Assembly: GCA_027315345.1 (NCBI GenBank) | Contig: DAHUYE010000106.1 | Coordinates: forward strand, 1-32,936 | Direction: 5' to 3' | DNA length: 32,936 bases | Source of the DNA: Actinomycetota bacterium | GTDB taxonomy: Bacteria > Actinomycetota > Acidimicrobiia > Acidimicrobiales > JAJPHE01 | The notes under the pieces: generated by a model | Told to the model about the DNA's origin: nothing | Database searches by the model: none | Seen by the model: only the letters and a program-made list of their open reading frames with translations | Shown here: one piece after another, positions 20,690 through 32,936 of the stretch | Position numbering within the stretch: the stretch's first letter is position 1 | Layout: every line of letters begins with the position of its first letter | Program-made: the position numbers and the translations under genes

Positions 20690-22873
20690 TCATGTGTCCG
20701 TCCCCCTCCGGGCGAACCATTCGAGGATCGCCGCGTAGAGGTCTTCGACGAGCGGCGGGCAGGGTGTTGCTTCGGCCAGGAGGCGCCCCGCTCTGGGCTT
20801 GCTCTTCGGAGCCTCCTCGGTAGCAGCTTCGGCTGCCGCCGCAAGTTGCGACTGCGAGTGGACGAATCCTTCGAAGGACTCCCGGTCCCCATGGGGCTCG
20901 CTCTGACGCTCCCAGCCCGGGGCCAGTGTGAAGACGCCGTGGCTTCTCCCGAAGTCCTTCATCGCATCGAACTGTGCCTGGTCCATCTCGCTTTGTGACT
21001 TCGAACCTAGGTTTTCGCTCTCGACATAGTGCCGGAGCACCGAATCATCGATACCCGCACTGACGACCTGCTCGAAGATATGCGAGCGCACATCGAACCG
21101 GAAGGCCCCGCCGTCGCAGACGACCGTCCAGGGCACGCCGAAGCGGTCGAGGTAGGCGAGGAAGGGACGGAAGGACTGATCTCCACCGACGGTGTAGAAC
21201 GCCAGGTGCAGGTCGTCCGGTGAGCGGTTCCGCTCGGCTGTCTTGCTGGTAGCGAACCAGGCCGGCAGCGCGGCCAGCTCGGTCGGTCCTTCTGTCAAGA
21301 TGACGCCATTGGCGAATAGGAGTCCGCGGGCGTCCGCTGACCAGTTCAGCTCCTTCACGAGCGTCCCGATCCACCGCTGGTCGGCCAAGTCGCCCGGCGA
21401 TAGACGGTGGGTCCGGGTGGCCCCTTCCCGAAGGTCGAGCCGGACGATGGACGCCAGGTGGTCCCGGCCGTCCGATGGCACGAGGTAAGGCGAGTGGGTG
21501 ATGAGCAGGCACTGACCCTCCCGGTTGGTCAGGTGAGAGCGGACAATCCGCTGCCACGACGGGTGCAGGTTGGTGGCGGGCTCGTCGAGCAGAAGCACCC
21601 GGTCGGGATCGCCGACCAGCGTCTCGGCGATGAGCAGCGCCTGCTGTACGCCGGTCCCGGCCAGGCGAAACGGTCGCCCGATTGCCGGCAGCGGATCGCC
21701 AGAAGCGGGAAAGATCTCGATCTGGATGGCCGGGTCGTCGCCCTCAGGCGTGCGCCGCCGCTCGGTCCTCAGCTCGAACCGCCGCCCCGGTGCCAGCTCC
21801 TCGAACCTGGCCTGGACAGCGCGGTAGCGGACCTGTTCCTGTTGGTCGCCGTTCTTGAGGTCGTGCAGCCGCTCGGCCAGCCCATCACCACCGCCACGGG
21901 GATCGTAGCCAGCAGCGACCGACTCCGCGCTGTCAGCCCTGCTTAGCAGCGCCGGATCGTTCACGCCTAGATGCCAGAGCCCGTAGTCCAGAACGTGCGA
22001 GAAGACGGATCCAAGCGTGTACGACCGCCGGAAGGGGCCGAGGGGGTCCTCGGGAGCGGACGGCAAGCCGATGGCAGCCACGAACTCGCGGTGCGGCAGC
22101 GGTGCGACGTTCGAGTTGAGCGGGTTCATGTTCAGCTGGACCAGCTCACTCTCCGAGGGCAGCAGCAGCGCCAGGGAGAACGGCAGATCGGGCGGACGCA
22201 CCGGACGAGCGTCATGGACACCCTGGCCGAAGAGGCGGACCCCCAGGATGACGGTGTTGGGCAGCCCGGCCGCTTCGTCCCGGTCGGAAGGGGCAATGAC
22301 GTTGCTCAGGTTCGGCAGGTCGGTGTTGATGTGCCAGGTGAGGGGAGCGTCCTCGTATTGGAACTCATAGCTCACCTGCCACTGGGCGCCGAGCACTCCG
22401 GAGTGCGAAACGACCAGCGTCCCACTGGTGAGACTGGCGAGGGCCTCCGGCATGACTTGCTCACGGATCCAGGCCTCCAGCCGGGGAAGCGAGGGTGAGT
22501 CGATTACCTGGTTGCCGAAGCTGGCTGAAAGGACCATCATCCCAACGAACGAGGTCAGCAGCTTGAGCTCGTTCGGACCCGTAAGGTCGGTCTCCAGGCG
22601 GATGACGCTGCGAGCGTTGGGTGCCATGCCCTCGTGCCGGGAGAAGCGGGCGTAGTCCTCCAGGGCAGCCCAGAGGGGTTGACGCTTGTCTTGGCCGCTG
22701 TCCTGAAACCGCAGCACCGCCTGGACCAACTTCAATGCCCGCACCAGGTTCGACTTGCCGGCGGCGTTGGGACCGACGATCACCGTGAGGTCCCGGTCGA
22801 GATCGAGCCGCAGCCGGTCTTCACCGGTACCGAATGAGAAGATGCCCTCAGCTTCCAGTGCCTTCAGCCGCAT
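20690..22873 (-). CDS. OLD-family ATPase with TOPRIM nuclease domain
   Basis: Overcoming-lysogenization-defect-type protein of 727 residues. The N-terminal ABC/SMC-like ATPase has Walker A GPNAAGKS (34-41). A long insertion (about 50-390) precedes the signature-like LAGTGVQQ (404-411), Walker B RVLLLDEPATNLHP (about 425-438) and a His switch LLITHS (about 457-462). A C-terminal TOPRIM domain carries ILTEGPTE (E528 and E532, the ExxxE pair) and VVCDGG (D587). The second Asp of the usual DxD is replaced here (DGG). Homologues (GajA, PtuA-like, retron Eco8 effector, P2 OLD) nick or cut phage or host DNA. ATG 22873 is chosen over an in-frame TTG at 22882. It is the last gene of the operon, 42 bases after the large repeat protein. 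Confidence 0.9.
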   Translation of the reverse strand: MRLKALEAEGIFSFGTGEDRLRLDLDRDLTVIVGPNAAGKSNLVRALKLVQAVLRFQDSGQDKRQPLWAALEDYARFSRHEGMAPNARSVIRLETDLTGPNELKLLTSFVGMMVLSASFGNQVIDSPSLPRLEAWIREQVMPEALASLTSGTLVVSHSGVLGAQWQVSYEFQYEDAPLTWHINTDLPNLSNVIAPSDRDEAAGLPNTVILGVRLFGQGVHDARPVRPPDLPFSLALLLPSESELVQLNMNPLNSNVAPLPHREFVAAIGLPSAPEDPLGPFRRSYTLGSVFSHVLDYGLWHLGVNDPALLSRADSAESVAAGYDPRGGGDGLAERLHDLKNGDQQEQVRYRAVQARFEELAPGRRFELRTERRRTPEGDDPAIQIEIFPASGDPLPAIGRPFRLAGTGVQQALLIAETLVGDPDRVLLLDEPATNLHPSWQRIVRSHLTNREGQCLLITHSPYLVPSDGRDHLASIVRLDLREGATRTHRLSPGDLADQRWIGTLVKELNWSADARGLLFANGVILTEGPTELAALPAWFATSKTAERNRSPDDLHLAFYTVGGDQSFRPFLAYLDRFGVPWTVVCDGGAFRFDVRSHIFEQVVSAGIDDSVLRHYVESENLGSKSQSEMDQAQFDAMKDFGRSHGVFTLAPGWERQSEPHGDRESFEGFVHSQSQLAAAAEAATEEAPKSKPRAGRLLAEATPCPPLVEDLYAAILEWFARRGTDT

Positions 22874-22915
22874 GGTCGACAAGCGTACTGACGGCCAGTG
22901 ACGATCTCCCCTTGA

Positions 22916-25783
22916 TTACCTCTCGCCTGGCTGCAGCACGCTCCGGAACTGTCGATAACCCCGTGCTCCGAGCCCGTGGGTGATCTGTTCCGCCTTCTCA
23001 CGGACCTGTTCAGGACCGCTGAGTGCCGAGCGCAGGACCTCGATCACGGACTCCTCGCCGAGCACCAGCCAGTCGTCACTCTGTCCCTTCATCATCAGAT
23101 CGAGGACTTCAACCACCTGCTCGGGGCGGGCGGACACCAGTTCCGCCAGACGCCGGCCCACGAGATGGCCGGACTCGACTGAGCCGGCGAGGCGCAATGC
23201 CCGGAGGATATGGATGAGTGCCCATTCGGGGTCAAAGGCCGGCGAAACAAACCACCAGCCGAACTCGACCATCTCGGGGGCGAAGGCAGACCGGTCTTCG
23301 GCGGCTTCGGCGGCGGCGATGCGGGCCTCCCAGAGGGCCATGGCCCGATCAACCGCCTCGGCGGCCATCGGCGGGTCCAGTGGCCGTGGTGCCCGATCCT
23401 CAATGGTGTACGAACTACGGCCCACAAAGCGCAGAGCGACGGAGCGAAGCTCCGCCCGGGCGGTGTTGAAGAACTCCTGAAGTAGTTCGTCGTCGATGCC
23501 CAACCGTCCGCGCAGGTAGTAGACCATCAAATGCTCGGCCAGCCTCTGCCAGGCCAGCATCGGATGCTGGCGGTCGGGACTCTGCTCCGCCAGCCGAGCG
23601 ACGGCCCGCCGGTACTCCTCCTTGAGCAGGTTCAAGGCCGAGTCATAGGGCGGGCAAAAGCTGACGTATGCCTCCCAGGCGGCTTCCCAGTAGAGAAAGC
23701 GGTCCTCGTCAGCCGGGAAGATTCTCCCGACGTTCTGCGCCGCCCATGCCTCGTCGACCAGCGCGAGCCACGGGAACCACTGGCCGTAGAGCGAGTGAAT
23801 GGCGTAGGACGGATCACGGTCCAGGTCGAGGTGAGCCTCCAGGACCTCTCGGACTTCGGGCATCCGGTCAAAGCCGGTCGTCCCGGCAGGAGCGCTTGCT
23901 GTTTCGAGCTGGCGGTGTACCCAGACCGCATACTTGACGACCGATCCGATGGCCTGGCCCCGGACGGTGTTGATAGCGAGCGTCGAGGGGTCCATGTTGT
24001 CCCCGCCGAATCGCTCTTCGGACTCTTGGGTCGGATCGGGGTCGTCGCTCAACGGACGCAGGATCGACCAGGCCAGCTCCCGCAGGTGAATGGGGATCTG
24101 GGCCGGCCCGTCGTTGAAGCCGACGTCCAGGAGGTGGGCAGTCGTGCTGCGTGTCCAGGACCACGGCAGGTCGAGAGCGTTCTCCGCCGAACCCGGCCTG
24201 AACTCAGCGCCTCGGTCAAGGGTCCGCTTGGCGAGACGAAGGACCGGTTCCCAGTCAAAGACCTGCCTGCTGGCGGCGGCGTTGCGAAACCCTTGGAGGA
24301 CGGAGTTGATGTAGACGGGCGGTACTGCCTGGAAGATCTGAGCGATCTCGGCGTAGCGCACCGGATCGTCTTTGACGGCCGTCTCGACCAGGCGTCCCAG
24401 ACCTTCCGGTGAGGGAGCGCCCCAGCCGCCTTGCGGCTGCCAGGACAGGAGGAAGTCGAGTAGCTCGTCGTGTGACATGGCGGCGAACTCTTCGTTGCTC
24501 AAGGGACTGGTCGGTCCGACGAAGCCGCCGTCCATGTAGGACAGGAACTCCGGATGCTCGATCAGCCGGTGCTCGGCGACCAGCCGGTTGAACCAGGCCC
24601 GCTCGTCCGGAGGCAGATCGTCGCTGATCGCGGCGAGCATCCGGGCTTGCCAGGTCAGGAGCCCGATCTCCCGGTTGCGGACGTCGGACTCCTCCGGCTC
24701 GGTGTAGAAGGGGGGACCGGCGCTAATGGCGTCAAGCACCTGCCGTTGTTGCCGTCCGGTCAGGCCCGTAAACCGATCGTGAAGCAGCATCCAGAACTCG
24801 TGGAGCAGATCGCCGTCGTAGAAATAGGATGTGCCGGTCAGCCGCTCCGACACCAGGGCCGACCGCCTCGGCGCCGCCACCCGGATGACGTCCAGGGCGA
24901 TTCGCCGATGGATAGCCCAGGAGTAGCCCTCCAGCTGGGCGACACCCTGAGCCAGGTCGGACCGGTCGGTCCTGGCCAGACGGAGGCCGGCATCCCGGAC
25001 CGCCGTGACTATTGCGCTGCGGGTGCTGGGGATGTTGTTCTGGCCGCGCGGCTCGACAGCTGGTCGCCAGACGAACGAGTAGTCGTGCCGACGCTCCTCG
25101 GGGTCACGGGCTTCGAGCGTCATGGCCCGATCGAGCAGGTCGCATAGGACGGTGAATCCCCGGAACCCGGTACCGCCGATGAAGTCCGGCAGGGATTCGC
25201 TGAGCAGACGCTCATAGTGATAGTCATCGATGACCGGTCGGACCTCGACCGGCCACTCAAGTGTCTGACCATCGTCAGTCGTTGTACGGATCGGGTTGCC
25301 GGCCCGCACGTCGAAGAGAGCGGAGGCAAGGGAGATAGCTGCATCGGCGAGCCCCGCCGCTGCCAGGCGCCGGAGGAGTTGGGCCAGCTTGTCCGGCAGC
25401 AACAGCCGGAATGTGCCGTTGAGCCAGCCGACCAGGCGGGGCACGAACTGGACGGCCATCTCCGGCGGCAGCGCCAGTACGGCCTCGGCGTAGTCATGGT
25501 GAACCCGGGCGTTATCCGTCTCGGGCATCTCGAGCAGGACCCTACGGACCTGCTCGGGGCTGCGGGACGCTACCCGGACGAGGTATCGGAGGGCCGCCCA
25601 GGGCGACAGCTGATATCCGCCGTCGACCGGTGTCGGAGTTGGCGGCGATGTGAAGAAGCCTTCGGCGGCGAGCGGCTCGATCCAGTCTGGTGAGGTTAGG
25701 TTGTCGAAGAAGTAGTTGACGTCTTCTCCGGTGATCAGGGTGTCCAACACCCGCTTGATCAGAGCGCTGTCAGGTCTTGCCAT
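22916..25783 (-). CDS. Large helical-repeat protein of unknown family, defence-island component
   Basis: A 955-residue soluble protein with no signal peptide, no membrane helix and no recognisable P-loop or nuclease motif. The N-terminus (GEDVNYFFDNLTSPDWIEPL, then AAEGFFTSPP and WAALRYLVRVASRSPEQVRR) has the look of short alpha-alpha repeats. Amphipathic helices recur throughout (RLVGWLNGTFRLLLPDKLAQ, LLRRLAAAGLADAAISLASA), suggesting a HEAT/ARM-like solenoid. Such solenoids act as phage-protein or nucleic-acid sensors, or scaffolds, in other defence systems; that role here is inference. Its ATG shares one base with the stop of the preceding gene (TGATG), so the two are coupled. I know no named family for it. 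Confidence 0.82.
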   Translation of the reverse strand: MARPDSALIKRVLDTLITGEDVNYFFDNLTSPDWIEPLAAEGFFTSPPTPTPVDGGYQLSPWAALRYLVRVASRSPEQVRRVLLEMPETDNARVHHDYAEAVLALPPEMAVQFVPRLVGWLNGTFRLLLPDKLAQLLRRLAAAGLADAAISLASALFDVRAGNPIRTTTDDGQTLEWPVEVRPVIDDYHYERLLSESLPDFIGGTGFRGFTVLCDLLDRAMTLEARDPEERRHDYSFVWRPAVEPRGQNNIPSTRSAIVTAVRDAGLRLARTDRSDLAQGVAQLEGYSWAIHRRIALDVIRVAAPRRSALVSERLTGTSYFYDGDLLHEFWMLLHDRFTGLTGRQQRQVLDAISAGPPFYTEPEESDVRNREIGLLTWQARMLAAISDDLPPDERAWFNRLVAEHRLIEHPEFLSYMDGGFVGPTSPLSNEEFAAMSHDELLDFLLSWQPQGGWGAPSPEGLGRLVETAVKDDPVRYAEIAQIFQAVPPVYINSVLQGFRNAAASRQVFDWEPVLRLAKRTLDRGAEFRPGSAENALDLPWSWTRSTTAHLLDVGFNDGPAQIPIHLRELAWSILRPLSDDPDPTQESEERFGGDNMDPSTLAINTVRGQAIGSVVKYAVWVHRQLETASAPAGTTGFDRMPEVREVLEAHLDLDRDPSYAIHSLYGQWFPWLALVDEAWAAQNVGRIFPADEDRFLYWEAAWEAYVSFCPPYDSALNLLKEEYRRAVARLAEQSPDRQHPMLAWQRLAEHLMVYYLRGRLGIDDELLQEFFNTARAELRSVALRFVGRSSYTIEDRAPRPLDPPMAAEAVDRAMALWEARIAAAEAAEDRSAFAPEMVEFGWWFVSPAFDPEWALIHILRALRLAGSVESGHLVGRRLAELVSARPEQVVEVLDLMMKGQSDDWLVLGEESVIEVLRSALSGPEQVREKAEQITHGLGARGYRQFRSVLQPGER

Positions 25784-26445
25784 CAGGACTCGCCCTCTCT
25801 GATCAGCGCATCGATCTTGTCGGCGTTGTCAAAGGTGCGGGGCCGCACTCGGTCCAGCATGAAGTTCTCGAAGGCGTTGTACCAACGGTCGAAGTCATCG
25901 ACGGAACAAGGGGAGTGATGGGCGCTCCGGACGAAGAAATCTCGGATGTCCATCCACTCCTCGGCGTGGCGCTCCTCGATCCGTTGCGGCAGGAGGCGGT
26001 TGGAGGGGTCGAACCGGGTTACGGTACGGCGGGCAACTTCCCGCCGGGCAGGGAAATTCCCGGCCTCCCAATCGAAGAACCTTTCGAGTTCACTGACGAA
26101 TCGATCGCTCAAAGACTCGTTGGTCTTGTTCTTAGCCCGGGGCTCCCTCCGCCATTTCGAGGCCAGGGCCTTCACCTGGTCACTGAGTCTGTCCGGCGCC
26201 TTTAGAGATGCGTCCGCGAAGTGGCGGGGTAGTTCGTTGATGAGTTCACGGAGACTATGGCTGGCCTGATGGAGATACTCGGGATTGTCCATTGCGGCCC
26301 GCGCCTTGACGGCCCCCACGAACATCCGTCCCAGGTCTTTATCCCGCTCTACCAGAACATCGAACAGGACAAGCTGCCGGGCCGTCAGGGTGGTCAGCTC
26401 CTGAGGGGCTGCCGGTTGGCTGGTCGGCTCCGGAGCGGTGCTCAT
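25783..26445 (-). CDS. Small helical protein, possibly HEPN-like, defence-island component
   Basis: A 220-residue, largely helical, charged protein. After a Pro-rich leader come LVLFDVLVERDKDLGRMFVG, HSLRELINELPRHF and, near the end, WMDIRDFFVRSAHHSPCSVD (165-182) and a long helix FDRWYNAFENFML, finishing PRTFDNADKIDALIREGE. The layout R...R-S-A-H-H followed by a terminal helix recalls HEPN domains, whose ribonuclease motif is R-x4-6-H; the spacing here (R168 to H176) is not canonical, so catalysis is uncertain. ATG 26445 has a strong GGGAGG six to seven bases upstream and overrules a longer non-conserved leader. A 166-base gap separates it from the ATPase gene, so this three-gene segment may have its own promoter. 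Confidence 0.8.
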   Translation of the reverse strand: MSTAPEPTSQPAAPQELTTLTARQLVLFDVLVERDKDLGRMFVGAVKARAAMDNPEYLHQASHSLRELINELPRHFADASLKAPDRLSDQVKALASKWRREPRAKNKTNESLSDRFVSELERFFDWEAGNFPARREVARRTVTRFDPSNRLLPQRIEERHAEEWMDIRDFFVRSAHHSPCSVDDFDRWYNAFENFMLDRVRPRTFDNADKIDALIREGES

Positions 26446-26611
26446 AGGCACCTCCCATTCTGAGCCCATTGACGGTGACAGAGGCGGCGACCCGGCCGAA
26501 GTCCCGACGCCGAGGGCAGCGTGGCCGACGGCCGGCTTGCGGTCGCCAGTACCAGCCCGTGTGTTAAGGCATGTAAGGCCACCAAATATCACGACTGTCC
26601 TGGCTCTTGCC

Positions 26612-29600
26612 CTAGTCGAACTCGGCAGGGTCAAGTCCGAGGGTGCGGGCGTTCTCGGTTACCACTCGCCGTGTGTCCTCGCTGAAATCCGGACCGTCGG
26701 CTTCGATTTCGATAGTAATCCTGAGGTTGCTCCCACGCGCCGCCGCAAGGTGCGGGATCAGTTCGGTGGCAATGCTTCCAGCGACCGCCGCTAGCCGAGC
26801 TGGGTTCTGCACTTCTATTCGTCCGAAAAAGTGGTTCAGGACTCCAGGTACTGGCTCCTGTCGCTCCGGTGGACGCTGTCCGCCAGGGCCTCCACCATGC
26901 GCGGGGCCGCCTTCGGCCGCGTCTGCTTCTTCATGTGCCTGACGTTCCGCGCGTTGCTGAGTAAGAGCGACGCCCGGCATGACTAGCACGCTGTTCCCGT
27001 CGGCGACAGGGCGGTCAACTGACCCGTTGATGACCAGCCCACGGTATCGGCCGTTCTCGGCGTCGAAGGACTCGGCGTATCCGAATCCCTCGTCCTCGAC
27101 GGCGAATCCCTGAGGTCCAACAGCGACGGCGCCGAGGAAGACGGACAGGTCCTTCAAGCGGGGCAAGTAAGGGTAGCGGGCGAAGTCCTCCCACACCTGG
27201 CTCACGTCGACATGATCGCCGTCTCGCCACAGCGGGATTCGATCCAGCTCAAGGCGGAGGTTGGTTGCCCCGTAGACGGTGCTCAGATGGTCGGGCATCG
27301 CCTTACGTGCAGCCCGGGTGGCCAGCCCGCCCTGACCATTGACCCTGATTGCCTCGATGTGGAACTCGGACTCTTCGGGCGTCTGGGCTGGGACCAGGAG
27401 CCAGACGTAGGTTTCGCTCAGACGCTGTCGCACAGTGTCCTCGGCCGTGTCCCGTTTGGTCCTCGCCTGAGTGATGCCGAACTGGTCGAGGTTCATCTCC
27501 GCCTGGCGATCAAAAATGTGGGACCACGCCATCTGTTGCCGGATCGCCGTGAGTAGGTCGGGGAGCCGGTTTTGGTCGGCCGCCAGGAACACGAGCATGT
27601 TGCGGTAGGCGCGCTCTCCACCGGACCGACGGGAGACGATGTCCGTGGCCACCGCAAGCGCCTCGGACGACGCCGATCTTGGCGCATATGCGTATTCGGG
27701 CCGCAGAATCACAAGGCCTGCCGAAGCCTCGTCGGCAACGTCACCCGGGTTGTGCGGGCAGCGATGGACCCGTGCGAACTCGCCCTGGTCGGTCTGAGCC
27801 TGGATCAGGCGAGCAAGCGCCTCGTTCACTTCGTCCTCGCGGTATCCCTCAGCGAGAGCCTGGGCAGTGCTGGCGACCGAGGGGATCGTCGAGTACCAGT
27901 AGCGGGAGCCGTCCACGTAGAGGTGGGTGGCCCGGTCGGACAGCCGCCGCAGTGCGTCGCCGAACACCGCGGTGCTCTCCCCTGGGAGTACGCTCCCCAG
28001 CTTCACCCGTACGTCCTCGATGCCACGGTTCGGGTTCTGCCCGGCAGCACCGTCCTGGGTCCGCCGCTGCATCGTTGGGGCCGAGCCTATAAAGACAGTC
28101 CGGGCGACCCGTCGTGCGGCCCGGAGACGGCCGAGAGCAGGAATGTCCCGGTCGAGGACGTTCGGCACCGAGCCCCGCCCGTCGATGTCGGTGTCGACGA
28201 CGGGCTTCCAGTTGTCCTCCAGGTGCCGGGTGACCTCTTCGAATACCTGCTGGTCGTCGAGGGGGATGCTGGCAGGGAGAATCAACGGATTCTGGTCGCC
28301 GTTTGCCCACAGGCTGTGGACGACGGCCGCCATTAGGCGCAGCACCCCGCGGGTCCTCTGAAAGCGCTCCAGGGCAGCCCAGTCCTGATAGAGGCGATCG
28401 AAGAACTCGGGATGGATCGGATAGGCGCGCTTGATGCGATCCTCGTAGGACGCCTCCCGACTTTCCGCCGGGAACTCGGTCTCTTGCTGGCGGTACATCT
28501 CTACGAATCGACGAGCGACTACGTCTCGCTTGGCGAAACCCTCGGCGTCAAGGGGCTTGAACAAGCGGCGTCGCACGATCTCAAACCCCTCCTCGGCCGT
28601 CGCTGGCTGCCATGGGGAGTCCATGCGATGCATGACGTTGCGCAGTCGCTTGAGCGCCTCAAGCCCGCCAACGCCGCCCACCTCAATGCCGGCCTCAATG
28701 GAGCCCTCTTCGACATCGGTGGAGGCGCTGAACCTATCCGACGCCGGGATGGAGACAAACATCATGGCGGTGGGCACGGCCTTGACCGCCTCAGCCAGCG
28801 ACTGAGCGAAGCTCATCTGCGCATCGAAGCTGCCGCCGAGGAGGTCATCCTTCGCCCAAAGTTGGCGGGCATATGCCACCCACTCATCGATCAGGATAAT
28901 GCAGGGCGAGCAGAGTTCGAGAAGCTCCTGCAGAGCCGCGCTGCCGGGGTCCACCCCGGCCTGGTCTTCATTAGCGACAAGGCTGTACCCTTCTGGCCCG
29001 GCGAGCTGCCACGCCATTTCGCCCCAGATCGTTCTGACCGTGGCGCCGTCGCCCTTTTCCACCAGACGATGTGGTGAAAGAGCGGTGCCGACGATGACTG
29101 CACGGGTCACACTCGATGGGATAGCGTCCACCCCTGCCTCAGCACCGATCTCCTCCATGCCGGGGAGGCTGAATGCGTCCGGCCCGACCCCGGCCAGGTG
29201 GAACACAGCGAGCAGCGAGTGAGTCTTGCCTCCGCCGAAGTTGGTCAATAGGTCGATGACTGGCTCCGCCGTCTGACCTGCGAGCCTGCGCACAGTCTGA
29301 ACAAGCAGCGTCCGTAGCCCTCTGGTCAGGAAGGTCCGACGGAAGAACTCCTCAGGGTCCGTATATTCGGGAAGCCCGTTGCCCCGGTAGACCTGGGCGA
29401 GGTCGGCCGCGAACTCTGCTTGCTGGTAGCGCCCGGTTGCCACGTCCTCGTGGGGCTCGATGACCTCGCGCCAGCCTGGCAGACCAGACTCGGACGACGG
29501 GGCGACCACACCAGGCAGAGGAGCGGCAGTGGCCTTCTTAGTCATCTCCTCGAAGCGGAGGCGAAGCGCCTCCTGGCGCAGATCGTCTACCGCCGCCGTT

Positions 29601-29977
29601 TCCGGCGCTCCGACGGCGCTCAGGAGGAGGTACGCGGTGTCGAGAACCCGGTAAGTGGCGTCGGCAGTGAAGGACTCCTTGTGAGCCCACTTGTGTCGGG
29701 CATCACGCAGTTCGCCGATATAGCTACGTTCCTGTTGGCCCAGGACCTTGCGGAACGGATTCTGCCAGTGATTGATCGTGACCCAGAGGAGAAAGTCCGG
29801 GTCGGTGGGATTGGGTTCAGAACCCCCCTTTTCCCTCGCCCAGCCGCCCCGATCCGCCGCCTGACTGATCCAATCCTCTGGGTACATACGGGACAGTTCG
29901 GAAGCGACGAACGGACCAAACCCAACGACGACCAGGTCGAGCGCCTCGTCGATCCGCTGTCGATTACTCTTGGGCAT
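26612..29977 (-). CDS. Swt1-like HEPN domain + DUF499-type P-loop ATPase
   Basis: A 1,121-residue cytoplasmic protein. Residues about 5-145 form a Swt1-type HEPN domain (IDEALDLVVVGFGPFVASEL at the start, LRDARHKWAHKESFTADATY at 90-109), with R94-x4-H99 as a possible ribonuclease motif. A linker is followed by an ATPase with Walker A NFGGGKTH (246-253) and Walker B CIILIDEW (359-366). The remainder has the DUF499 look (KRAYPIHPEFFDRLYQDWA, FQRTRGVLRLMAAVVHSLW, then long strand/helix alternation). DUF499 ATPases are repeatedly found beside DUF1156 methylases in predicted defence loci. ATG 29977 lies 13 bases after the methylase stop, with GGAG upstream; a longer leader to 30022 would overlap the methylase and is not family-like. 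Confidence 0.9.
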   Translation of the reverse strand: MPKSNRQRIDEALDLVVVGFGPFVASELSRMYPEDWISQAADRGGWAREKGGSEPNPTDPDFLLWVTINHWQNPFRKVLGQQERSYIGELRDARHKWAHKESFTADATYRVLDTAYLLLSAVGAPETAAVDDLRQEALRLRFEEMTKKATAAPLPGVVAPSSESGLPGWREVIEPHEDVATGRYQQAEFAADLAQVYRGNGLPEYTDPEEFFRRTFLTRGLRTLLVQTVRRLAGQTAEPVIDLLTNFGGGKTHSLLAVFHLAGVGPDAFSLPGMEEIGAEAGVDAIPSSVTRAVIVGTALSPHRLVEKGDGATVRTIWGEMAWQLAGPEGYSLVANEDQAGVDPGSAALQELLELCSPCIILIDEWVAYARQLWAKDDLLGGSFDAQMSFAQSLAEAVKAVPTAMMFVSIPASDRFSASTDVEEGSIEAGIEVGGVGGLEALKRLRNVMHRMDSPWQPATAEEGFEIVRRRLFKPLDAEGFAKRDVVARRFVEMYRQQETEFPAESREASYEDRIKRAYPIHPEFFDRLYQDWAALERFQRTRGVLRLMAAVVHSLWANGDQNPLILPASIPLDDQQVFEEVTRHLEDNWKPVVDTDIDGRGSVPNVLDRDIPALGRLRAARRVARTVFIGSAPTMQRRTQDGAAGQNPNRGIEDVRVKLGSVLPGESTAVFGDALRRLSDRATHLYVDGSRYWYSTIPSVASTAQALAEGYREDEVNEALARLIQAQTDQGEFARVHRCPHNPGDVADEASAGLVILRPEYAYAPRSASSEALAVATDIVSRRSGGERAYRNMLVFLAADQNRLPDLLTAIRQQMAWSHIFDRQAEMNLDQFGITQARTKRDTAEDTVRQRLSETYVWLLVPAQTPEESEFHIEAIRVNGQGGLATRAARKAMPDHLSTVYGATNLRLELDRIPLWRDGDHVDVSQVWEDFARYPYLPRLKDLSVFLGAVAVGPQGFAVEDEGFGYAESFDAENGRYRGLVINGSVDRPVADGNSVLVMPGVALTQQRAERQAHEEADAAEGGPAHGGGPGGQRPPERQEPVPGVLNHFFGRIEVQNPARLAAVAGSIATELIPHLAAARGSNLRITIEIEADGPDFSEDTRRVVTENARTLGLDPAEFD

Positions 29978-29990
29978 CTGCGTCAAGCTC

Positions 29991-32678
29991 CTATCCGAGG
30001 CCGGGCAGCTGCCCGCTACCAAGTCGTTGCTGGGTTTGTAGCTGTTGGGCGAGTTGCGCTATTTCGGGCCAAGAGGCGACGAGGACGTTGTATGCCCCGC
30101 CTTCCTCCGCCCATCCCTTGCGTTCACAAATGGCATACAGCCGGTACGCCAGATCTCGGGCAGCCTCGCTGTTCGAAAGTCGACTGAAGAGGCTCGCTGC
30201 TTTCTCCTCGCCGCCATCCAGCAACTGCTCGACTAGATGCTGGACCGACTCCCAAACAGTTGCCCGGGCATCTTTGGCGGGGTCATAGTCCTCGGGCAGC
30301 TCGTCACGTCGAAGGAGGCGACAAGTTCCACCTCTAGTTACGATGATGCCGGCCCGTTCCAGTCCCTCGATGCTGGTTACCTTCGCCCTGGCAAGGGAAT
30401 CGGCCTCGCCGGAAGGAGCCTCACCAAATTGGAACTGCTCAAACCAGGTGATTGCCCAGCGGGTGTCGGCGTCGAACTCCCCCTCCTGTTCATCCAGAAC
30501 CTCGCCCAAAACAGAGTTGACGAGGAGCAGCGCCGAACGGACCGTCATCGGGGTGCCGTCCGGTTCGAGAACCGACTGGTGCCGGGTGAACACAGCCATA
30601 CCTGGTCCAACTACCGCCTGTGCCAAGTCGACAGGAGCCACCGCCGCCGATTGGAGAAGCTGAATGGCCGGACCAAGCTCGGAACGCAGGGCGACCGCCA
30701 GGTCCCGACGCGAGACCCTGACCGCTTCTTGATGGCGAGGTCGGCAGACCAGCACGACGTATGACGCAAGCGTGTTCGCGCCTTGGCCCACATTCGAAAT
30801 CAGACGAGCGGCTCGTGCTCCTCGAATGGGCCACGTCATGACCACCGTGAGCCCCGAGCGGATTACCGCTTCGAGAATTGCCTCCCACCCAGGTGACACC
30901 CGAGCTCCCCGCTCTGCCTCCTGTTCCTTGTGGGCGTAAACGATGAGAAGTGGAAGATCATCGCGAGCGGCATCGCAGAGCGAGGCGAAAGTCAGGGTGA
31001 ATCCATCAATAAAGTACTGCTTCGCCGCCTCCTTGGAATCATGCCGGGCGGGTTCCGCAATCAGCTCGCCGCCCTTCGGGGTGGCCATGGTGGCGAGGAG
31101 TTCTGGGTAGACGTCTTTGAGCGCGAGTCGGATCCAGGGGTAAAAGTAATCGGCCAGGTTCGCATAACCGATGGCCGCGAAATATGGTGGGTCGGTAACA
31201 ACTAGACACCGATTGGTGAGTTCCTCACTATGAGTTCGAGCATCTCCCTGAACCACCGTTGACGCAGGCCCATGGGGCTCAATAAATCCGTAAGCTCTGC
31301 TGGAGGTCTCGACCACTTGAATCCAGTCGCCCACCGACCCGCCGAAGGGATTGACCTCGGCGAAATCCATCAGCGGCGCAACATCATGCTGAGCAAATGC
31401 GGGTTCCGCCTTGGCCGTCGCCGTCGATCGCACGTTCCACCTGACAAGAGTCGAGGATGATTGGGCGAGCTTTCCAACACAAAGCCCAAGAGCGGTCGCA
31501 ACGCTCTTAGCCTGCTGATCACTGCCCCCGTCCTCCCTGACCCATTTGGCAACATCACTAACAAGCGATGCAAAAGTGAGCAACATCTGTCGCTGTCTGT
31601 TGGTGAAGAGACTGGGCCAGTCGCGGATTCCGTATCCCCATGCTGAGAAGCTCAGTGCTTGTTCCGGTATCGCCAAGACGGGAAGGCAATCGGGTTCGCT
31701 GATCTGGGAAGCGGCCACATGTTCGGGAGAGGACGCATAGAACTTCCTCCCGTGCTGGCCGCTCGAAGCGAACGAGGTCATGACGATCCCTAGCCGACCA
31801 CTCTGCCCCTGTTGCCTTACGTAGGAGAGCGGAATTGGCGCCCCAGACAGCAAGCACGTGTCGCGTCCGGGTGAGGTCGGCTGTCCTTCCATGTGAACTT
31901 CGAAGGAGATGGACTTAGCAGCTAGGTCCACAACCGGCTTGAGGTAGGCCCTGAACTTCGGCGTCTTTGACAGCCACCAGTTGCCAACCAAGGGCACGTG
32001 GGACCCCTGGAATCGAGGGTCAGGGCTCTCGACCGTTCGTGCCCACAGCCAAGCAATTACTGGATCACCATTCGGGGCGAGTGGGTAAAGGTGACCGATC
32101 TGCTGCCAGGCAGCATCCCTAACACGCTTAGCGTAATGCTCTACATCGGATAGAAACCCTGAAAGTCCCCGCACACTGGTCTCATCGAAGAGGCCGTCAG
32201 CATTTATCTGCGGGCGATCTACAACGGCTGGAGGTAGTTCAGTCAACGCCTTCGAGATAAGCACTGGCACGGGGTTCAGATCACTCCCCCGGCTGGACAG
32301 GCCGAGACGCTGAGCCTCCACGAGGGTCGAACCGCCACCACAGAACGGGTCGAATACAATCGGGGTCTGTTCCATGCTGGCGGCAATGGCCTTCTTGGCG
32401 GCATCGAGAACTTCCGCCTCGGGATTGGACGCCACAGAGGCCACCAATCCTTTGATCGTGTCAAATAGCCTGGCCCGCTCAGCATCTTCCCCTGGGTCAT
32501 CCACGAGCGAAGCGAAGATGAGTGCCCGTAGCGCTGGAACAGGCATCGGGGCAAACCATTTGTGCAAGTTGCGGATCGTCCCCGTCTTTCGTTCCTTGTC
32601 CGCCTTGCATGCGGCATTGATGGCTTCGAGTGGCAGGGCCGTCTCGATAAGCTTCTTGCGGTACGGGGTATGGCTCAA
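29991..32678 (-). CDS. DUF1156-type DNA methylase (adenine/cytosine-N specific)
   Basis: An 895-residue protein. DUF1156 lies at the N-terminus (RKKLIETALPLEAINAACKA, then GTIRNLHKWFAPMPVPALRA). SAM-binding motif I is FDPFCGGGSTLVEAQRLG (109-126) with SDLNPVP (132-138); the catalytic motif IV is VVTDPPYF (493-500). DPPY is typical of amino-methyltransferases (N6-adenine or N4-cytosine). Motif I precedes motif IV by about 380 residues, an alpha-class-like order in which the insert would hold the target-recognition region. It probably marks host DNA as self. The TTG start overlaps the stop of an upstream gene (TTGA), so this was not the first gene of the operon. Third codon positions are visibly less GC-biased than in the left half of the window. 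Confidence 0.92.
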   Translation of the reverse strand: MSHTPYRKKLIETALPLEAINAACKADKERKTGTIRNLHKWFAPMPVPALRALIFASLVDDPGEDAERARLFDTIKGLVASVASNPEAEVLDAAKKAIAASMEQTPIVFDPFCGGGSTLVEAQRLGLSSRGSDLNPVPVLISKALTELPPAVVDRPQINADGLFDETSVRGLSGFLSDVEHYAKRVRDAAWQQIGHLYPLAPNGDPVIAWLWARTVESPDPRFQGSHVPLVGNWWLSKTPKFRAYLKPVVDLAAKSISFEVHMEGQPTSPGRDTCLLSGAPIPLSYVRQQGQSGRLGIVMTSFASSGQHGRKFYASSPEHVAASQISEPDCLPVLAIPEQALSFSAWGYGIRDWPSLFTNRQRQMLLTFASLVSDVAKWVREDGGSDQQAKSVATALGLCVGKLAQSSSTLVRWNVRSTATAKAEPAFAQHDVAPLMDFAEVNPFGGSVGDWIQVVETSSRAYGFIEPHGPASTVVQGDARTHSEELTNRCLVVTDPPYFAAIGYANLADYFYPWIRLALKDVYPELLATMATPKGGELIAEPARHDSKEAAKQYFIDGFTLTFASLCDAARDDLPLLIVYAHKEQEAERGARVSPGWEAILEAVIRSGLTVVMTWPIRGARAARLISNVGQGANTLASYVVLVCRPRHQEAVRVSRRDLAVALRSELGPAIQLLQSAAVAPVDLAQAVVGPGMAVFTRHQSVLEPDGTPMTVRSALLLVNSVLGEVLDEQEGEFDADTRWAITWFEQFQFGEAPSGEADSLARAKVTSIEGLERAGIIVTRGGTCRLLRRDELPEDYDPAKDARATVWESVQHLVEQLLDGGEEKAASLFSRLSNSEAARDLAYRLYAICERKGWAEEGGAYNVLVASWPEIAQLAQQLQTQQRLGSGQLPGLG

Positions 32679-32811
32679 CGTGGTGACTCTGCTCTCTGCC
32701 AGAAGTGGTCGAACTCGTAGTTCACGCTGGCAACTCCAGTGAGTGCATCGTCTTGGCCCATGAAGGGGTCGTAGAGGTAGCGGACTTCGACTGAAAGTTG
32801 AGTCCCAGGAA
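32675..32811 (-). pseudogene. C-terminal tail of the gene upstream of the methylase, cut by an insertion
   Basis: The minus-strand frame reads GTQLSVEVRYLYDPFMGQDD, then ALTGVASVNYEFDHFWQRAE, and stops at TGA 32675. This TGA overlaps the TTG start of the methylase by four bases (TTGA), so the gene was once the first or an earlier cistron of the operon. The composition is clearly coding and no start codon fits; the frame stays open to 32866, but the sequence beyond about 32811 probably belongs to the insertion sequence. The protein family is not recognised from this tail; in related loci this position can hold a helicase or DUF3780 protein, which is only a guess here. Confidence 0.55.
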
Positions 32812-32913
32812 GTGGTGTAAGAGCCGGTAGGGCCTGAAGGGTCCCCCAGACGCGACAGTCACCGCGTCAACCTCAAGAAGCAGTTCGACACAAACCACTT
32901 GAGGAGGAACACG

Positions 32914-32936
32914 ATGACTGTCCCTACAACTATCGA
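32914..32936 (+). CDS. Start of a transposase, probably IS256 family (runs off right edge)
   Basis: Only eight codons are inside the window: MTVPTTI followed by Asp or Glu. A strong GAGGAGG at 32901-32907 sits six bases before the ATG, and the non-coding leader of about 100 bases is what IS256-type elements show before their transposase. Several actinobacterial IS256 transposases begin MTVPTTIDP or similar; that is the basis for the family name. The outer end of the element should lie between about 32800 and 32850 (GTGGTGTAAGAGCC at 32812-32825 is a candidate), but no second copy is in the window to prove it. Confidence 0.45.

Follow-up and report, generated by a model that had tools for sequence, protein, structure and literature searches.

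The N-terminal part of HmaC is, on the evidence of its sequence, a true Swt1-type HEPN domain with a canonical R-x4-H motif (R94, H99). The gene lies in the window, by which we mean the whole stretch analysed, namely the entire contig C32, which has 32,936 bases and belongs to a draft genome of 3.84 Mb. We consider it reasonably probable that HmaC provides the ATPase of an Hma system with three genes, and that its HEPN domains pair on invader DNA, cut RNA and shut down the cell. In outline, the ATPase, the helicase and the methylase would survey DNA together; on meeting unmodified or blocked invader DNA, the ATPase would oligomerise or change shape and so bring two HEPN domains together, whose paired D59/R94/H99 sites could then cut RNA in a metal-free reaction. 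By cutting RNA, the paired domains would stop the infected cell and would back up the DNA restriction carried out by HmaA. Within this scheme, HmaC probably assembles on DNA with the helicase-nuclease and the methylase, and its HEPN domain probably serves as a reserve RNase, stopping the cell once restriction fails. The evidence for the RNase step comes from sequence and fold. What triggers it and what follows for the cell we infer, the latter along the lines proposed in PMC12839542. Should the ATPase indeed control an active RNase in the HEPN domain, a single polypeptide would couple the surveillance of DNA to a shutdown through RNA, in a defence family that is widespread.

Both the HEPN-DUF499 pairing and the idea of suicide have been described before; the finding in HmaC of the window is correct but ordinary. 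The passages of PMC3710099 (2013) on this family report that HEPN domains from the Abi2/Swt1 family are joined to DUF499 within R-M-like operons, the group being marked as active, and those of PMC12839542 (2026) count the fusion in 1370 of 2446 Type-1 BR taxa and term it a last-resort suicide effector. The RNA-cleaving toxin and abortive infection envisaged in the original prediction are consistent with the HmaC data and had already been proposed in these passages. Searches of an open-licence library of papers found no experimental work on the HEPN domain.

Domain layout of HmaC

The hmaC gene (26612..29977, minus strand) encodes a HEPN-DUF499 ATPase of 1121 residues from its ATG and is recognised by the PADLOC HmaC profile (2.7e-280) and by the Pfam profiles DUF499 (6.1e-31) and HEPN_Swt1 (1.7e-26). 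The ATG at 29977 (MPKSN...) lies 13 bases past the hmaB stop, and this start is supported by the relatives, since methionine occupies residue 1 in 86 of the 91 rows in which the column is filled. In ATG numbering, the HEPN_Swt1 (PF18731) match extends over residues 12–123 and covers the profile almost fully, scoring 93.2 bits where the cut-off is 27.5. Together with a model of residues 1–165, it delimits a HEPN domain of residues 1–151 (29525..29977, minus strand) that includes the last long helix. The PADLOC HmaC profile spans only the part of the product C-terminal to this domain. A Walker A motif, NFGGGKTH, is located at residues 246–253 (29219..29242, minus strand), exactly where it had been predicted, and is invariant in all 35 aligned rows, the window included; the Pfam DUF499 match covers residues 301–828 (27494..29077, minus strand).

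The order of a HEPN domain followed by a DUF499-type ATPase, as claimed in the original prediction, is borne out by the profile match, by conservation, by the model and by the comparison of folds. The position given for the motif also holds, with RHKWAH running from R94 to H99; the span quoted for it (29686-29977) contains the R94 codon (29696..29698, minus strand) and stops just short of the H99 codon (29681..29683, minus strand).

Predicted structure of the HEPN domain

Structure prediction of the HmaC front, the check proposed for it at the outset, yields a confident helical model (residues 1–165, built from 77 sequences, pLDDT 94.2). In this model, R94 is close to the end of helix 81–98 and H99 is the first residue beyond the helix. 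The arrangement is the one expected of HEPN domains, whose motif sits where the third core helix ends, and the description of the HEPN motif in PMC3710099 locates it where the model has R94 and H99.

A Foldseek comparison of the HEPN model with the PDB gave no match at E ≤ 0.001, and the HEPN chains in its list were few and no stronger than unrelated helical proteins. The best chain in VIA-align 2 was the C-terminal domain of yeast Swt1 (PDB 4pqz; Z 7.4, rmsd 3.6, 123 aligned, 7% identity), followed by Csm6 (Z 7.3), AbiF (7.1) and AF0298 (7.1), and such Z scores can be reached by chance for helical bundles. The Swt1, AbiF and AF0298 chains are HEPN-type according to their entry titles or to the families covered in PMC3710099, where the eukaryotic Swt1 domain, the best structural match, is called inactive. 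Matches at Z 7.1–7.4 lend support to the predicted HEPN fold and are not proof of it. We take the Csm6 chain to be HEPN-type as well. PDB sequence searches with the HEPN and full-length alignments returned no meaningful match.

The HEPN domain seems to be flexibly tethered to the ATPase, since residues 148–162 fall below a pLDDT of 50 in the full-length model (pLDDT 80.9, pTM 0.55). This low-confidence stretch and a raised dN/dS at residues 153–165 define a flexible linker at residues 152–165 (29483..29524, minus strand). Compared with the closest relative (L035), dN/dS is 0.27 in the linker, 0.055 in the HEPN domain and 0.037 in the ATPase, with 0.04–0.07 outside the linker; the values are rough, as they come from this single pair with a high dS of 1.0–1.6. 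By this measure, the HEPN domain of HmaC is under strong purifying selection.

Conservation and loss of the putative active site

R94 and H99 are both kept in 92 of 94 non-redundant HEPN-bearing rows from many phyla, a set obtained from 98 rows by a 90% identity filter that dropped four. Arginine is present at position 94 in 92 rows and histidine at position 99 in 93, the latter being the sole strongly conserved His column in the domain; W97 and A98 are likewise each kept in 92 rows. At position 95, N is found in 88 rows and H in four, so that HmaC of the window, with H after R94, departs from the residue usual among its HEPN-fused relatives. A polar residue (N or H) directly follows R94 in 92 of the 94 rows, and such a residue after the motif arginine is given as typical for HEPN domains in the motif description of PMC3710099. 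Homologues without both residues had been named as the observation that could overturn the motif claim; one row in 94 (L059) is without both and one (L022) without the arginine, and the claim stands.

A further conserved position is D59 (codon 29801..29803, minus strand), an acid present in 93 of the 94 rows and a putative third active-site residue; a conserved acid adjacent to the motif is described in the HEPN overview of PMC3710099. The sole row without D59 is again L059 (8561-11995), which has lost D59, R94, A98 and H99 and keeps the remaining 15 of the 19 sites tabulated. Because D59, R94 and H99 vanish jointly in this row, we suggest that they may form a single active site, although one lineage gives a pointer and not a statistic. 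L059 can serve as a natural variant that marks the three residues for mutation, and the value of the finding is as test material. The second row, L022 (1498-5043), lacks R94, W97 and A98 and carries K in place of R8, with D59 and H99 kept.

Since L022 and L059 keep the domain without the motif, a HEPN domain can persist with some non-catalytic role. This role might be the main one throughout: the domain would then be a dimerisation or nucleic-acid-binding module that keeps HmaC on its target, with vestigial RNase activity, which we judge rather unlikely. Both rows retain most other near-invariant residues and the fold; R110, R139 and D113, all outside the motif, are equally or more conserved (R110 and R139 rank above R94 in the 94-row alignment), and non-catalytic HEPNs are described among the families treated in PMC3710099. 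Such a module does not readily account for the retention of R together with H in 92 of 94 rows drawn from many phyla, nor for L059, where the only tabulated sites lost are the four named above and they are lost together.

Alternatively, the HEPN domain could be an active RNase with a narrow substrate, such as a phage transcript, a tRNA or the mRNA of the system itself, and act in direct interference or self-regulation with no abortive infection. Motif conservation and the model serve this explanation as well as they serve RNA cutting that shuts down the cell. We nevertheless hold a narrow substrate to be clearly unlikely, as both PMC12839542 and PMC3710099 lean towards suicide or dormancy, on the example of HEPN toxins elsewhere, and no specificity element was seen here.

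By itself, the RHKWAH motif is weak evidence: HmaC contains two R-x4-H occurrences where shuffling a protein of equal composition would yield about 1.9, and a 150-residue stretch holds one by chance in 22% of shuffles. We take the motif as real because of the HEPN_Swt1 profile match and the conservation in relatives. That RHKWAH arose by chance in a helical N-terminus of some other kind, as the shuffled counts would allow, is ruled out by the 93.2 bits and by both residues standing at the column in 92 of 94 relatives, and has a negligible probability.

The hma genes and a probable insertion sequence

Directly upstream of hmaC, hmaB (29991..32678, minus strand) encodes a DUF1156 adenine methylase of 895 residues (PADLOC HmaB 8.5e-232; Pfam DUF1156 1.3e-12), in agreement with the DNA modification that had been predicted for the neighbourhood. 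It is preceded by a 3' remnant of the helicase-nuclease gene hmaA (32675..32795, minus strand), the C-terminus of which matches the HmaA of L035 (1.4e-18). The remaining 141 bases, up to the terminal repeat (32796..32936, no strand assigned), close the contig with one end of what seems to be a repeated insertion sequence. The rest of hmaA is found at the end of contig C13 (L115, 1-3701) as a 1194-aa frame, with an HmaA match of 1130 bits over residues 62–850 of the scanned stretch.

The ends of C13 and of the window contig each carry 141 bases of the element with matching inverted ends, GTTGAGTCCC, which recur at contigs C10 and C20, and the hmaA junctions share a 9-bp direct duplication, TTCAGTCGA. 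From the matching inverted ends and the duplication at both contig ends, we infer an insertion sequence in hmaA. The gene appears to be interrupted about 35 residues before its end, with the assembly broken there and the order of the contigs presumed rather than shown by reads. The truncated HmaA keeps the nuclease motif as GYDVES...FVEVKGR (GYDxES...EVKGR in its relatives) and is without the tail of the other aligned HmaA rows.

Among the HEPN-bearing relatives of the 80-locus set described below, those with at least 7 kb upstream carry hmaB in 41 of 43 cases, hmaA in 37 and both on the same strand in 36; with at least 1 kb upstream, hmaB is found in 61 of 69. The apparent truncation of hmaA near its 3' end, with hmaB and hmaC still open, is new here. 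If the insertion sequence has cost hmaA its conserved C-terminal tail and so crippled the restriction arm, the locus, with the other two genes still open, might persist as a modification-gated RNA toxin, in effect a module for abortive infection or addiction that no longer restricts DNA, a reading we consider very improbable.

Relation to known systems

As far as they are described in PMC12839542 and PMC8565338, the HEPN-fused variant of the Type-1 DUF499-centred BREX-related (BR) system and the Hma system of PADLOC are the same. HmaC is one of their members. The locus shares with them, in the features given there, a HEPN-DUF499 ATPase, a DUF1156 methylase and, if the two parts of hmaA are indeed one gene, probably an Snf2 helicase with a PD-(D/E)XK-type C-terminus; unlike the usual systems, its hmaA seems to be split by the insertion sequence. 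Compared by description, it also resembles the Ava_2192 group of Swt1-like HEPNs in the corresponding part of PMC3710099, which combines a HEPN domain with a DUF499-overlapping AAA+ ATPase in operons with R-M parts and is labelled active; at this level no difference was seen. BrxC of BREX has a related ATPase core according to the comparison in PMC12839542, but differs at its C-terminus, and the HEPN domain is described in that comparison for DUF499 ATPases and not for BrxC.

Distribution and history of the fusion

A profile search of 396 genomes of the phylum found HmaC in 35, and a contig scan with an ATPase-only alignment yielded 80 further loci from many phyla. These 80 were chosen by similarity to an ATPase alignment made from HEPN-bearing proteins, and the presence of a HEPN domain in 78 of them is not a population frequency. 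Overall, a HEPN domain precedes the ATPase in 98 of 110 loci, with the window (L016) counted. The 12 loci without a HEPN call comprise nine more distant ones (L023-L031), L013, in which the hmaC front is lost or replaced, L085, which is cut by a contig end, and L056. In L056 (77-3280), an in-frame TAG follows the HEPN domain about 60 residues before the Walker A motif, and the HEPN frame has RNRWAH; the TAG may reflect a split gene, readthrough or an error. The system can work without the domain, since the survey of the phylum found no HEPN in nine of its 30 loci, a count made with a detector that was built from the window's own HEPN and that remote HEPNs could escape.

The tree of the ATPase region comprises 67 rows from the 110 loci, without L071, L013, L056, L085 and the even-numbered loci of the ATPase-scan set; L016 was left out as a duplicate of the sequence entered as 'window'. 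A branch supported at 100/100 has the HEPN-bearing rows on one side, and the motif losses of L022 and L059 are separate from each other. In this sample, the HEPN-ATPase fusion arose once, with the root unsure because the HEPN-less rows sit on long branches.

Some loci show further arrangements. L046 (7871-8131) has a second, short HEPN-profile frame upstream of its HEPN-HmaC gene. L123 (1-1300) encodes an HmaC without the HEPN front, and its upstream frames resemble, by eye, a nucleotidyltransferase-HEPN pair and a PIN-type pair. Two hmaC genes, each downstream of an hmaB piece, are present in a genome of the same order (G263, contigs C21 and C9; L116 and L117).

Genes downstream of hmaC

Among the compared loci, the genes at 25783-26634 and 22916-25783 have no relatives near HmaC relatives, and the gene at 20690-22882 has them in L038 and L051 only. 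Being rarely or never found beside HmaC relatives, these genes were set aside as Hma components and are taken to be defence-island neighbours. The gene at 20690-22882 encodes an OLD-like ATPase of 730 residues that carries TOPRIM (Pfam OLD-like_TOPRIM 1.7e-12) and adjoins the Dsr1-like gene at 22916-25783. The latter encodes a 955-aa Dsr1-like core without the SIR2 part (PADLOC Dsr1 8.3e-43, profile from position 305 on) and is preceded by the small gene at 25783-26634, which has a weak pP_pnuc_1 match (0.0039) below the cut-off. Three relatives of this core in the phylum have shorter frames, and the frame upstream matches SIR2_2 in L129 and DUF3644, named as a HEPN family in the family listing of PMC3710099, in L130, and is unmatched in L131. 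Perhaps the Dsr1-like core is combined with exchangeable effector genes.
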